Origin: a virus
Reading direction: 5' to 3' (one strand)
Length of the DNA: 64,000 nucleotides
Virus record (IMG/VR): IMGVR_UViG_3300042446_000849
Location: 55,377-119,376 of that record
Under the pieces are notes generated by a model, which was not told the origin of the DNA, ran no database searches, and was given only the letters and a program-made list of their open reading frames with translations. This document shows, in pieces, positions 38,671 through 56,290 of the stretch (positions are counted from its first letter, which is position 1; each line of letters starts with the position of its first letter). The position numbers and the translations under genes are program-made.

Positions 38671-38892
38671 TTATGTTTCGTCATTCTTATTTGAATGCAC
38701 TACAATGTACGGCCAATGTGAAATTTTCTTCGTTAATTCGGCTTGGTTGTACGCCATCTTCATTAAATATCTCTGTGTCTCTTTTAGGGACTCAATTGTA
38801 TTACCTAGTAATTCTCGAGTAATCAATAATTCTTTTTCAAGAGTTTGAATCTTCTGTGTTGTTATGTCCAACTCTTCGTCTAAATATTGCAT
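38671..38892 (-). CDS. Small coiled-coil protein between gp32 and gp59
   Basis: A 73-residue protein from the ATG at 38892 (MQYLDEELDITTQK); a TTG at 38910 would add six residues. It is nearly all charged helix with heptads (IQTLEKELLITRELLG). It overlaps the end of gp59 by 56 nt. No function recognised; the location inside the 32-59-33 replication block suggests a replication or recombination role, by inference only. Confidence 0.55.
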   Translation of the reverse strand: MQYLDEELDITTQKIQTLEKELLITRELLGNTIESLKETQRYLMKMAYNQAELTKKISHWPYIVVHSNKNDET

Positions 38893-39460
38893 CGAATTTT
38901 TCCTTATCAAACTTTAAAAACGGTTTGTATTTTCTAATTAGTCTTGATATATCTGGCCACATAATTTTGTCTTGTATTTCAGAATCAAATGTGTCTAGAT
39001 ACGGTCGTATTTTTTCAAGAATAACTAGAGTCTCTAAACTGATAGTTTTTCTAAGAAATGCTTTTATTATATATGGATGGTATGCTTTTGTGATTTTAAA
39101 GGAATCGTCGAAAGTTAGCTTCTCTGAGTCTAATTCTTCAATCAACCTATCAATATCGTTAGTAAAGATGTATGACAAACTCTCTACTCGCTTTTTCCAA
39201 TCTGTATATCTTTGATTTGCTTCTGAGTCAAACATCCCGCCCCATCGATCACCAGACACGAAGTTAGCTATTAAGAAATTAGCTACTTCTTCGTCAGAGT
39301 AGGTTTTAGAAACTTTTTTAATAGAGAACAAATCTTTTCTCTTCGCAAAAGCCTGACGACTTGCTCTCACTCTTCCGCGCTGTTGAATCGCATCATAATT
39401 TTCTGTAGTGAAATGTAACTTTAATGCCAAGTACATTTTATACACTGAATATTCGTCCAT
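38837..39460 (-). CDS. 59: Helicase loader gp59
   Basis: A protein of about 207 residues resembling T4 gp59, which loads helicase gp41 at forks through gp32. YSVYKMYLALKLHFTTENYD, then VRASRQAFAKRKDLFSIKK and VANFLIANFVSGDRWGG, fit the T4 protein (VYKLYLMIKQHMNGKYD and so on). The ATG at 39460 is used; a GTG at 39466 overlapping the gp33 stop is an alternative. Gene order 32-(two small)-59-33 mirrors T4. Confidence 0.82.
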   Translation of the reverse strand: MDEYSVYKMYLALKLHFTTENYDAIQQRGRVRASRQAFAKRKDLFSIKKVSKTYSDEEVANFLIANFVSGDRWGGMFDSEANQRYTDWKKRVESLSYIFTNDIDRLIEELDSEKLTFDDSFKITKAYHPYIIKAFLRKTISLETLVILEKIRPYLDTFDSEIQDKIMWPDISRLIRKYKPFLKFDKEKFDAIFRRRVGHNNTEDSNS

Positions 39461-39462
39461 AA

Positions 39463-39729
39463 TCACAATGGTAGTTTTCCCCGTTTTTTAAAATAATTTT
39501 GATCTTCTGCTTCTGATTGAATCTTATCTTTCAGAGACTGATTAATTAATTTAGACACAGACTCAATATCAATGTCTACTTCATTACAATATTGTATAAC
39601 AGCATCCATATAACCGATCTTTTCTCTAAACACTCGTTCTTCTATGTGTAGTGAAAATTCATTAGGTGATCTAAATTTTTTAGTAATAATCAAACTATCA
39701 GTTAAAATATATTGTACTTCTTCGTTCAT
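39463..39729 (-). CDS. 33: Late transcription co-activator gp33
   Basis: An 88-residue protein. The pattern LHIEERVFREKIGYMDAVIQ, YCNEVDIDIESVSKLINQ and a short hydrophobic C-terminus (RGKLPL) matches gp33, which bridges host RNA polymerase and the sliding clamp at late promoters. Its presence agrees with the TATAAATA elements upstream of structural genes. It overlaps the bilin reductase stop by 4 nt. Confidence 0.8.
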   Translation of the reverse strand: MNEEVQYILTDSLIITKKFRSPNEFSLHIEERVFREKIGYMDAVIQYCNEVDIDIESVSKLINQSLKDKIQSEAEDQNYFKKRGKLPL

Positions 39730-40397
39730 TGTGTTTCCGGGAAAAGAACCTCATCCATAAAATTCATAAACACATCTTTATCTACTCCGAAGTTAATCAT
39801 CATCGCAGGTGTATGTGGATTTAATTTTTGGTTCTTACAGTAATTGTTATGTGCTTCTTTATAATTGTCTTTTGACTCTATACCTACATTATATAGGTAA
39901 TAGTCTAGATTGTCAATAACCGTAGATGCTAGTTGATCAAATTCTTCTTGAGTTTGAATGTTTCCCGCCGCCAGCATATTTGGACTGAAAATGCGCTTAG
40001 CCCAATCTGGTAATTCTCTTGGTTTGTTCCAAGTAATTTTTGACATCTTATCCTGGTACCAATCATATGTTTTTGAGTCGCCAGTATGTGAGAAATCGTG
40101 GAATGCACCTGTAATTTTGTTTTGTCCGCATACTATGTCAAAACCAAAAATGGGGTCTGAGGAATTGTGATGCGGGAAGATACACATATGCATGACCCAC
40201 ATCTTTTTATGTTTCGTGGCATCTACAATCTCAATGTGTGCTCTACGAAATTTGTCAGAAGTCCAAATATAATTTTCCCACGTAAAATTATCAGACTCGT
40301 GTCTATATTCTGGCTTCAAATCTTCAGGTGTGTATGACTCTAATTTTTTAATAATATCTTTTGCAAGCTTGTTGGCCTGCGGCCACACTTCAATCAT
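39726..40397 (-). CDS. Ferredoxin-dependent bilin reductase (PcyX/PebS/PcyA family)
   Basis: A 223-residue enzyme of the FDBR family, which reduces biliverdin IX-alpha using ferredoxin. Family signatures are RRAHIEIVDA (Glu56), MWVMHMCIFPHHNSSDPIFG (His70) and FGFDIVCGQNKITGAFHDFS (Asp87). The 17-residue spacing from His to Asp equals that of the catalytic pair in PcyA (His88/Asp105), as I recall the numbering. The product cannot be fixed from sequence by eye; phage members make phycoerythrobilin (PebS, PcyX). It sits directly after heme oxygenase with an 8-nt overlap, forming a heme-to-bilin cassette. Confidence 0.88.
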   Translation of the reverse strand: MIEVWPQANKLAKDIIKKLESYTPEDLKPEYRHESDNFTWENYIWTSDKFRRAHIEIVDATKHKKMWVMHMCIFPHHNSSDPIFGFDIVCGQNKITGAFHDFSHTGDSKTYDWYQDKMSKITWNKPRELPDWAKRIFSPNMLAAGNIQTQEEFDQLASTVIDNLDYYLYNVGIESKDNYKEAHNNYCKNQKLNPHTPAMMINFGVDKDVFMNFMDEVLFPETQ

Positions 40398-40923
40398 TAT
40401 AATCTTTCAACATATTAATATTATGAGTAAATGCCACATTGGCTTCTTCGGCTAATGATACATTTAATTTCTGTCTCACATTTGCAATTAGTTGTGGTAA
40501 ATTTTCAAACTGAAACATTCTATTACTACCAGGTAATAATTTAGCTAACATTTGTCCGCCGAACATATCGCCCATATGTCTTACATATACATGAGCTAAC
40601 ATTTTAGTTGTATCGTCTTTAATTGTTTCTAAATAATTAATATAATTAATTGTTGACGCATTTAACTTGCCACTGGATGCCCCATCGCCTATTAATTCAT
40701 TGTAGTCTAATTCGATTGCTTTTGCTCTTTTAATATTGTCTATACCTTTAAAAATACCTAGTCGTGAACCATGCCACTCTAAATTTTGATACAGTACTAG
40801 CAATTGATACAAATAGTCAATATATTTGTCTCTGTCAACTTGACCTTTGAAAATTGATTTAATAAAAGGTTGCTCTTCAGCTTCCTTGTGTTTTTCCGAA
40901 GTTAATTCTTTTAATGTACTCAT
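40390..40923 (-). CDS. ho1: Heme oxygenase (biliverdin-forming)
   Basis: A 177-residue heme oxygenase that opens heme to biliverdin, CO and iron with ferredoxin as likely donor. The proximal His12 lies in SEKHKEAEEQPFIKSI (the HxxAE motif), and the distal helix motif is VRHMGDMFGGQMLAKL (GDxxGG). It is shorter than bacterial enzymes of about 220-240 residues, as phage forms often are. It precedes the bilin reductase in the same operon and overlaps the 2OG oxygenase by 4 nt. Confidence 0.92.
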   Translation of the reverse strand: MSTLKELTSEKHKEAEEQPFIKSIFKGQVDRDKYIDYLYQLLVLYQNLEWHGSRLGIFKGIDNIKRAKAIELDYNELIGDGASSGKLNASTINYINYLETIKDDTTKMLAHVYVRHMGDMFGGQMLAKLLPGSNRMFQFENLPQLIANVRQKLNVSLAEEANVAFTHNINMLKDYND

Positions 40924-41528
40924 AAACCTCCCATTCCACCGCTAGGTGGCGGAAATCCCAAATATTGTCTGTGGTCATATTTGTAATCTCTATACTTACC
41001 AAATTTATCTACATAATGTAGAAACGCTTGTGTTTGTCTTTCGCCTTTGTATTCATCTCGCCAATGTGGTAAGATATCACCCTTGTAAACAATAAGATCT
41101 CCTGGTTCTAAAAAGATAGGAAAACGCTCACCTTTTAAATTATCAAACCAAATTTCCCAAGGTTCAGGATCTACAGAAATATTAACAGTGGTTGAAAATT
41201 CGCAACTTGGTCTATCAGTATGTTCTGTCATTACTGCACCTTTATAATATATCCTCGCATAGGTATAAGTATTATAAAGTTTTTTACCTGTTATATCTTC
41301 CATCATTGGTAACATTTGTACAGATAATGTTTCGAAACAAGCCGCAGAATAATAAGCAAAACTATTTGTTACTTGGGTATCACCAAACATAAATTTGTTT
41401 TCCTCACTTTGACCACCCTTCATATAAGTTACTCTTTTTAGTAACTCAAATTCCAAATCTAGATGTTCTACTAATTGAGGTTGAATTGCGCCTCTTACAA
41501 CTTCATATAGATTGTCTTTAAATGACAT
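40920..41528 (-). CDS. 2-oxoglutarate/Fe(II) oxygenase
   Basis: A 202-residue dioxygenase. The metal triad is visible as HTD (TEHTDRPSCEFSTTVN) and a distal His in DILPHWRDEYKG, followed by RQTQAF with the 2-oxoglutarate-binding Arg. The substrate is unknown. It is the first gene of the ho1-bilin reductase operon, with overlapping starts and stops, so it may act on the same pathway or simply share control. The C-terminus ends in a Pro/Gly-rich tail (GFPPPSGGMGGL). Confidence 0.82.
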   Translation of the reverse strand: MSFKDNLYEVVRGAIQPQLVEHLDLEFELLKRVTYMKGGQSEENKFMFGDTQVTNSFAYYSAACFETLSVQMLPMMEDITGKKLYNTYTYARIYYKGAVMTEHTDRPSCEFSTTVNISVDPEPWEIWFDNLKGERFPIFLEPGDLIVYKGDILPHWRDEYKGERQTQAFLHYVDKFGKYRDYKYDHRQYLGFPPPSGGMGGL

Positions 41529-41541
41529 ATTATTCCTTAAT

Positions 41542-41577
41542 AAAAAAAGTAGGTTATTCTGTTACGAGGAAACCTAC
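41542..41577 (-). terminator. Rho-independent terminator of the tmRNA gene
   Basis: On the minus strand GTAGGTT (41577-41571), a 15-nt loop and AACCTAC (41555-41549) form a perfect 7-bp stem followed by seven T residues (41548-41542). It ends the tmRNA transcript just before the oxygenase start. Confidence 0.8.
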
Positions 41578-41595
41578 CGAAACCCTAAGCAGCGT

Positions 41596-41628
41596 TTAGG
41601 CTGCTAAAGCGAACTGTTCGTCGTTTGC
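41596..41628 (-). other. tmRNA tag-peptide reading frame
   Basis: The frame GCA AAC GAC GAA CAG, then TTC GCT TTA GCA GCC TAA, encodes ANDEQFALAA and stop; with the tRNA alanine the tag is A-ANDEQFALAA. The six bases before the resume codon are GTAAAT, with A at -4 as required in E. coli. The ending ALAA is a ClpXP-type degron. E. coli's encoded tag is ANDENYALAA. Confidence 0.9.
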
Positions 41629-41734
41629 ATTTACGTTTTTTGCTTCTTCGGCCGAGTTACCTCAACCCTGCGGGTTTCACATTCCCGAGCTGTCCACTCT
41701 GTTACTAATTGCCCTGTCGAAACTATTCAGGCCC

Positions 41735-41849
41735 CTCAAAAAGATTTTTCCATCTGTCTAGTGCTTCGAAGTAGCTGATCCAGACACATCCTTCACATCC
41801 TCTACCACAACACGTAGTTGGTTCTTGTGGCCTAGGATAAAAATCTTTT
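41735..41849 (-). other. tmRNA intervening segment with processing stem
   Basis: The 115 nt between the encoded CCA and the coding-piece 5' end. Its ends are complementary: AAAAGATTTTT (41849-41839) pairs with AAAAATCTTTT (41749-41739), extending the acceptor stem by 11 bp. The interior has a CCACAA/TTGTGG hairpin. The segment should be cut out by host RNases to give two RNA pieces. Confidence 0.75.
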
Positions 41850-41909
41850 TGGTGGACCTGGGGGGATTCGCACCCCCGTCCAGAACACCGTTCTCTTTGC
41901 TTCATACAG

Positions 41910-42119
41910 CTATAAAATATTAGTTAAATCTCCAACATGCACATATCCATCAACTTTTAGATTAGGATCGCTAATACACTCTAACAAGACATGCCTTTTA
42001 TCAACATCGTCAGGATGAAAGTGTTTGACAACAAATTCATGTCCTCGATATTTGTCATAAAAAGGTTTGAATGGTGGTTTGTAAACCTTATCTAAAAATT
42101 TAACTTTTTGTGATAACAT
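41910..42119 (-). CDS. Small hypothetical protein
   Basis: A 69-residue protein ([20 protein letters not shown]) with a later [14 protein letters not shown]. It looks like a small beta-barrel with basic N-terminus; no family recognised. It ends within the first bases of the tmRNA acceptor piece, so the tmRNA could be processed from the same transcript. Confidence 0.55.
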
Positions 42120-42172
42120 ATTATATATTGTCTAGAATTGAAAATCTATTATATAGTTGATCTTTTATTATA

Positions 42173-42826
42173 CTAGATCAACTTCCATTTCTTATATTCT
42201 GCTCGTAGCTCTTTAAATCCGTCGATCCATTTGTTTCGTTTTTCTACAAACACCAATGGCTTTTCATCATCTACTGCTATGAGCACTACTAATTGTGGTA
42301 CTGGTATTTTAGTCATCTCTTCGAAAGCAACGGCATATGCTGCACATTGCATAAAATAATCATGAATATCATCATGATGTTTTATACGTCTGGATGTTTT
42401 GAAATCTATTACTGACATTTTACCATTGTATTCACCTATACAATCTACAGTCCCTGCGACTTCTAGATGATCTGAATATAATGGTTGTTCTAAAGCGTGA
42501 ATGTTGTCAATGCTATGAAGTACCGGTTTCATATTTTGCCACATCTCAACATCAAACATATTTGGAACAATTTCCTTGTTTAAAAGATATTGTTCACATA
42601 AGCTGTGAATGCGCGTTCCACGGCCAGCGGCCTTGCTAGATATTTTGTTTGCTTCTTCTTCGCCTACTCTCTTACGCCATTCTATAATTGCTTGTTTTTT
42701 AAGCAATCCAGTGACAGTAGTTACAGACGGGTATGCTTTACCCGATGGTGTTTCATAAACACGGCTACCATTATCAGCGGTAACTCGTTTTAGTTTAGGA
42801 AACTCAAGTTGTACATGATTAAACAT
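42173..42826 (-). CDS. PD-(D/E)XK exonuclease (RecB/Cas4-like)
   Basis: A 217-residue nuclease. GTRIHSLCEQYLL provides the N-terminal His, GTVDCIGEY the Asp, and MSVIDFKTSRR the DxK core; QCAAYAVAFEEM is the motif IV glutamine/tyrosine region. Phage members degrade host DNA or process replication ends. It overlaps the MazG-like gene by 8 nt. Confidence 0.85.
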   Translation of the reverse strand: MFNHVQLEFPKLKRVTADNGSRVYETPSGKAYPSVTTVTGLLKKQAIIEWRKRVGEEEANKISSKAAGRGTRIHSLCEQYLLNKEIVPNMFDVEMWQNMKPVLHSIDNIHALEQPLYSDHLEVAGTVDCIGEYNGKMSVIDFKTSRRIKHHDDIHDYFMQCAAYAVAFEEMTKIPVPQLVVLIAVDDEKPLVFVEKRNKWIDGFKELRAEYKKWKLI

Positions 42827-55165: not shown

Positions 55166-56290
55166 TTACCTCATAATTCGTAAAATGATTGTATCTATAT
55201 TTATCCTACCATTAACCGCTTGTTCTTTAGCCTTAATATCATTGATGTATGTTCGCAACTTAACTTTGCCTGCACCCATTAGATCTTTAATTTGTTCTGC
55301 AGGTTTACGTAGTGTCTTTTGCTTAGATTTATCTGGTGACCAATTTTGCAAAGCCGACCCCTTAACAGTCATACCTTTTGTAGACTCAGACGTATAAACT
55401 GCTAGCTTACGAGTTTTAGTATTAAATAACCAGACTTGTTCTGCACCTACAAGATCAATTGCTTTTGCAGATGTCAACCCAAGTTCTTCATCTTTAACTT
55501 TATACTTAAGAGATTTAATCTGTGTGACTGCAGGCTTTTCTCTTACTGCTCGAGGTTTGCGATTTGCTTTCTTAAATTGTGAGTATTTCTCGCAATCAGC
55601 AATAAATGCCTCAAATAGCTTAACTAAGTTCTTTAGTTTGCGTTTATTGATATTAGAATAACCCTCAATCGTTTGAGAATCTTTAGTATCAACGACTGCA
55701 TTATATTGATCTAATTTTTTCTGTGCCCATTCTTTAATGTCTGAAACATATGGTCCAGGAATTTGATTAGATTTTAAATTATTGTATAAATTAATCTCAA
55801 CATCATTCTTAATGAAGTCATCAATCAATCCTTCGACTTCGCCAATATACTCAGAAGTCTTTTCCTTCATTACATCTTGAATAGAAGGTTTTTTAACTGT
55901 GCCAATAGGCGTTACAACCTTAGCAACAGACTTTTTATTGTAGAATCTGTTTTTGCCTAACCGAATCAATTCATCAAGTGCATTATTAAAACCTTGCATA
56001 TGAGTAGGTGATAATTTTGCGCCTTGAAGAACTAGTCTAGCAACCCAACCATACGTAATATGAACATCTTTCTCTTCAATTTCAGAAAAATATTTCGCAT
56101 CTTCTGGTCTATTATGTTTAATATAATATTCGTAATACTTGTAAGAGTCAGCACGAGTCTTTTCTGCAGAATACCAATTATTAATACGCATCAAGTCTGC
56201 GTTATAGTTTACAGAAATAGGATCAAGGTGCGAAACCGTAGGTTCCGAACCATATGTGCGACTCAAATCATGTTCACGTTTAGATGCCAA
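55166..56290 (-). CDS. Conserved phage protein of unknown function, TTG start
   Basis: A 374-residue protein. LIRLGKNRFYNKKSVAKVVT in the middle and VWLFNTKTRKLAVYTSEST near residue 300 belong to a family found next to recombination genes in aquatic T4-like phages; role unknown. The start is TTG at 56290, with AGGGGA six bases upstream and an 11-base overlap with the gene above. The C-terminal half is basic and lysine-rich. Confidence 0.7.
   Translation of the reverse strand: MASKREHDLSRTYGSEPTVSHLDPISVNYNADLMRINNWYSAEKTRADSYKYYEYYIKHNRPEDAKYFSEIEEKDVHITYGWVARLVLQGAKLSPTHMQGFNNALDELIRLGKNRFYNKKSVAKVVTPIGTVKKPSIQDVMKEKTSEYIGEVEGLIDDFIKNDVEINLYNNLKSNQIPGPYVSDIKEWAQKKLDQYNAVVDTKDSQTIEGYSNINKRKLKNLVKLFEAFIADCEKYSQFKKANRKPRAVREKPAVTQIKSLKYKVKDEELGLTSAKAIDLVGAEQVWLFNTKTRKLAVYTSESTKGMTVKGSALQNWSPDKSKQKTLRKPAEQIKDLMGAGKVKLRTYINDIKAKEQAVNGRINIDTIILRIMR

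Follow-up and report, generated by a model that had tools for sequence, protein, structure and literature searches.

A heme oxygenase gene and a bilin reductase gene of a clade sister to PcyX, paired before gp33 in a T4-like phage genome fragment

Adjacent genes for heme oxygenase (HO) and ferredoxin-dependent bilin reductase (FDBR) are a known type of phage accessory gene. In the PcyX system (structure 5owg; phage Mosig, QOI69017), a phage FDBR gene lies beside a heme oxygenase gene, and in Mosig the pair adjoins the neck genes. PcyX has been reported as specific to phages. The freshwater pmoC phage CB_2 (527 kb), which has valaS and in which the cassette is broken, carries an HO and a PcyA/X reductase lacking Asp55, and this enzyme pair has been shown to make phycocyanobilin (PCB; PMC11480375). 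The reason for bilin genes in phages of heterotrophic bacteria is acknowledged to be an open question (PMC11480375). The locus described here was found in a 64,000-nt stretch of IMG/VR virus record IMGVR_UViG_3300042446_000849 (positions 55,377 to 119,376; hereafter the window), the record itself being a 119-kb fragment with T4-like gene content. The pair sits in a dense minus-strand run consisting of a permuted tmRNA, a dioxygenase-like gene, HO, FDBR, gp33, gp59, two small open reading frames (ORFs), and gp32, of which the following features are discussed:

41523..41973 (-), betaproteobacterial-type tmRNA, permuted (two-piece) (RF01850, 101.5 bits; RF04321, 121 bits; ARAGORN), tag ANDEQFALAA
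40920..41528 (-), putative Fe(II)/2-oxoglutarate dioxygenase-like protein (phrog_2954, E=3.5e-52; H103-x-D105...H155 motif)
40390..40923 (-), HO, 177 aa, compact form (PF01126, HmuO matches, invariant residues, model pLDDT 92.8)
39726..40397 (-), FDBR, 223 aa, AX clade, sister to PcyX (PF05996, 5owg, tree, residues, model pLDDT 94)
39888..39916 (-), predicted sigma-70 promoter, TTGACA-17-TATAAT (12/12 match), within the FDBR gene and ~160 nt upstream of gp33
39463..39729 (-), gp33 late-transcription coactivator (PF16805, 76 bits; phrog_254)
38837..39466 (-), gp59 helicase loader (PF08993/PF08994; phrog_269)

The HO and FDBR genes overlap by 8 bp, in agreement with an earlier note on this DNA that had described an overlapping pair, and 4-bp overlaps join the dioxygenase-like gene to HO and FDBR to gp33. 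The FDBR matches Fe_bilin_red (PF05996) at 80.3 bits (Pfam cut-off 31) and the HO matches Heme_oxygenase (PF01126) at 79.1 bits (Pfam cut-off 23), with PcyX 5owg (E=5e-43) and HmuO 1iw0 (E=7e-12) as the respective top PDB sequence matches. AlphaFold2 models of the two proteins (pLDDT 94.1 and 92.8) were compared with known structures using Foldseek; the FDBR model matched PcyA (TMq 0.84) and PcyX 5owg (TMt 0.86), with PcyA, PebA, PcyX, and PebB as the top matches, and the HO model matched HmuO (TMq 0.83). The PF05996 domain and the FDBR fold together place the reductase among the ferredoxin-dependent bilin reductases. The HO is shorter than usual and contains the proximal His (His12) and distal GDxxGG helix (here of GDxFGGQ type) that define HO-1/HmuO, with His12, Gly118, Asp119, Gly122, and Gly123 invariant in 19 aligned sequences. 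Where dS was finite, dN/dS values against relatives lay within 0.016-0.115 (FDBR) and 0.05-0.26 (HO). Both genes are complete, have intact catalytic residues, and are under purifying selection, and the complete route from heme through biliverdin to a reduced bilin that had been proposed for the locus is borne out at the sequence level.

The FDBR phylogeny (65 sequences, rooted with PebA/PebB/PebS as the outgroup; the CB_2 FDBR was not among the sequences, and L230, a very long branch with 10 changes per column, was excluded from the conclusions) assigns the window protein to a clade with 22 representatives (support 99/96). Its sister clade comprises 5owg, Mosig, and two sequences from bacterial metagenome-assembled genomes (100/93). 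The two clades are joined with support of 100/99, followed by alphaproteobacterial PcyA and then by cyanobacterial and cyanophage PcyA. The window FDBR thus falls on the AX side of the tree (99/99) and does not group with the cyanobacterial and cyanophage PcyA proteins, and the tree rules out a cyanophage origin for it. Both checks suggested by the earlier note, the phylogeny and an alignment of the catalytic Asp and His, leave the protein among the FDBRs with these residues retained. Its Glu56, His70, and Asp87, conserved among close relatives, correspond to Glu76, His88, and Asp105 of PcyA, so that at these three residues it agrees with PcyA in the functional sense. At the position shared by PcyX Asp55 and PcyA Glu76, Glu is present in 44 of the 44 distinct window-clade proteins that cover the site (aligned count), while all 66 Mosig-clade proteins have Asp according to a regular-expression count, which misreads some partial or cyanobacterial sequences. 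The window FDBR therefore has neither the catalytic Asp55 nor the placement within the 5owg and Mosig clade by which PcyX is recognized, and the description "PcyX-type" in the earlier note holds for the sister relationship but not for membership in PcyX itself. Identity between the window FDBR and PcyX is ~35-37%. At the Ile86 position, Val is found in the window clade and in alphaproteobacterial PcyA, and Met in PcyX; at the Tyr238 position, the window clade and alphaproteobacterial PcyA both have Phe. Overall, the alphaproteobacterial PcyA proteins of the AX clade (e.g., L088-L091, L094) have identical residues at five active-site positions (Glu/Val/His/Asp/Phe), although they are bacterial, are ~25-30% identical to the window FDBR, and lie outside the phage clades; one of them (L089) used as a query against viral contigs retrieved no relatives. 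The window clade suggests that PcyX arose within a phage lineage, on a single branch, when Glu was replaced by Asp. A PcyX-like FDBR that has the PcyX Asp and a heme oxygenase close by was also seen in both L085 (3387-5684) and L086 (3898-5131). Binning had assigned these contigs to Neomarinimicrobiota (335 kb) and Halobacteroidaceae, and they could be bacterial or viral DNA.

The predicted product of the window FDBR is PCB rather than phycoerythrobilin, because the site of Asp55 and Glu76 is occupied by Glu, the CB_2 FDBR without Asp55 makes PCB (PMC11480375), and Glu76 is PcyA-specific and required for reduction of the 18-vinyl group (PMC10151467). For the window clade, this amounts to a product prediction from one residue. 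Two points speak against it: the hydrogen-bond partner of Glu76 in PcyA, Tyr238 (PMC9800206), is replaced by Phe213 in the window FDBR, as it is by Phe in alphaproteobacterial AX PcyA, and FDBR product specificity has been found not to be reliably predictable from sequence (PMC13193486). Were the replacement of Asp55 by Glu to leave regiospecificity unchanged in an otherwise PcyX-like pocket, the enzyme would make phycoerythrobilin as PcyX does; PcyX 5owg is its closest characterized relative by sequence, and its clade is closer to PcyX than to any PcyA. This outcome is nevertheless considered unlikely, given that the residue distinguishing PcyX from PcyA is of the PcyA type in all relatives covering the site and that the CB_2 precedent yielded PCB.

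A scan of viral contigs recovered 75 related loci, which we take to be of freshwater origin from the IMG dataset numbers. The order HO-FDBR-gp33-gp59-gp32 is kept in those relatives that cover the region, many of which also have a permuted tmRNA upstream of the cassette, and the pair is both widespread and constrained within one phage lineage. The closest cultured relative by major capsid protein (62.6% identity), Methylophilales phage Melnitz (MZ577097), has a comparable order (PhoH-PDDEXK-tmRNA-gp33-gp59) without the HO-FDBR pair between tmRNA and gp33, and its tmRNA is of alpha type with a glutamine riboswitch. Since the pair lies before gp33 in the window clade and beside the neck genes in Mosig, related phages carry it at two different genomic locations. 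What distinguishes the locus from the described systems is the combination of a reductase sister to PcyX, a PcyA-type active site, a fixed location before gp33, and a promoter-like sequence embedded in the FDBR gene. The fixed location, the embedded promoter, and the dioxygenase-like gene upstream do not feature in the earlier note. The dioxygenase-like gene is close to the cassette in relatives other than one group (L065-L068, L070, L071). Its product had no Pfam match and no significant PDB match, so the putative assignment rests on the H-x-D...H motif, whose triad is invariant in 16 homologues including that of Mosig. The PHROG label "ferrochelatase" looks unsupported for this protein with an H-x-D...H triad and appears to have been carried over. 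Separately, cyanophage bilin-reductase genes near annotated 2OG-Fe(II) oxygenase genes were observed in L083 (1-257) and L253 (1-283) (Sf-FP1 and S-SCSM1).

The phage host is inferred to be an aquatic, non-cyanobacterial, and probably non-photosynthetic bacterium, probably a betaproteobacterium. The earlier note had also suggested, from the tmRNA tag, a host outside the cyanobacteria, which appears probable from the betaproteobacterial-type tmRNA, the kinship with Melnitz and Mosig, and the failure to find psbA in 19 records. The capsid and the terminase large subunit (TerL; 50.5% identical to that of Melnitz) are nearest to Melnitz, which infects a methylotroph, and Mosig, which infects SAR11. 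Similarity searches with the tmRNA against 299 and 399 genomes returned short conserved-core matches only. A cyanobacterial host, in which the cassette would support phycobilisomes, could be argued from the T4-like family, the PcyA and PebS genes carried by cyanophages, and a TerL that is 47-49% identical to cyanophage TerL. These points are set against the capsid and TerL affinities, the tmRNA type, the psbA result, and the position of the FDBR outside the cyanobacterial and cyanophage PcyA group, and such a host is regarded as highly improbable. Unlike CB_2 with its valaS, the window phage has no detected alaS (TIGR01821) or three-gene valaS cassette, in which alaS accompanies hemO and pcyA/X; alaS was not found in G000 or 21 related records (fragments). 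With a source record of 119 kb that is itself a fragment, the absence of a gene carries little weight.

The window contains 10 sites with at most one mismatch to the sigma-70 consensus (1.7 expected), and the perfect match within the FDBR gene has a promoter-like counterpart, agreeing at 11 or 12 of 12 positions, in a similar location in all 45 distinct loci. For the Asp codon in the -35 element, all 51 distinct FDBR genes use GAC, versus 141 of 770 (18%) elsewhere in those genes; the genes are related by descent and do not represent 51 independent events. The -10 element is written TAT AAT every time in the distinct FDBR genes compared. Between the -35 and -10 elements, the codons differ from gene to gene. 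The protein motif DN...YN is conserved, but this motif does not explain the codon choice at the promoter site. The T4 late-promoter pattern TATAAATA was of no use as a guide, with fewer matches (3) than expected (12.8). The sequence in the FDBR frame is thus promoter-like and may serve as an overlapping promoter for gp33-gp59; if it does, a phage losing the FDBR gene would lose the promoter as well, and this may be part of the reason for the cassette's persistence here. The embedded promoter offers a testable explanation for an accessory gene remaining at one place. Carried to its extreme, the same argument would have the FDBR gene retained mainly as a carrier of the gp33 promoter, with the enzyme dispensable. 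The shared promoter position and the GAC bias are compatible with that extreme, but dN/dS is low along the gene and the catalytic residues and the partner HO are fully conserved, and it is accordingly given very little credence.

The reading favored on balance is that the two enzymes make up an auxiliary metabolic cassette with which a T4-like phage would dismantle heme via the PCB route, and which contains an embedded promoter ahead of gp33. During infection, the phage HO would open host heme, yielding biliverdin IXalpha, CO, and Fe(II). A four-electron reduction by the FDBR would then convert biliverdin to the blue-green pigment PCB. The electrons would probably come from host ferredoxin, since a search for ferredoxin (Fer2) in the 119-kb phage fragment found none. 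Rather than light harvesting, the likeliest benefit would be heme dismantling with release of iron, in which the FDBR would dispose of biliverdin. The main rival is that the bilin serves as the chromophore of a host phytochrome or bilin-binding globin, through which the phage would alter host light sensing. PCB made by the CB_2 phage enzymes does assemble a functional phytochrome (PMC11480375), and heterotrophs contain bilin-binding globins (PMC10151467). However, no phytochrome PHY domain was found in the window record or 18 related records, and inspection of the phage record by eye revealed no bilin-binding gene, making a chromophore role a doubtful alternative to heme dismantling. A wider proposal, put forward tentatively and at somewhat less than even probability, is that T4-like phages forming a large clade, with non-photosynthetic freshwater bacteria as hosts, produce PCB for which those hosts have no known use, with the FDBR gene bound to its site by the embedded gp33 promoter.

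Some further observations concern the tmRNA and the wider record. Permuted tmRNAs also occur by the cassette in L016 (482-856), L054 (4503-4886), and L069 (4471-4903), and their varied tags (ANDNSYRMVA, ...ANDDYFTQDLKLAA, and ANDDVFYEDLRLAA) suggest differing hosts or turnover. Within the permuted tmRNA of the window, a 60-aa ORF (41723-41905, minus strand) encodes an Oxidored-like domain (PF09791, 44.8 bits); it runs from the tRNA-like piece across the intervening segment, and its sole in-frame start codon is within the tRNA-like part. The nine nucleotide differences from L007 are all synonymous, as would be expected of a genuine protein-coding gene nested in the tmRNA; in relative L010, the tmRNA segment is shorter and lacks this ORF. 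Finally, the source phage record (G000) seems on inspection by eye to carry FolE-like and QueE-like genes resembling those of the 7-deazaguanine pathway at 40872-42481 (outside the window, in L080).
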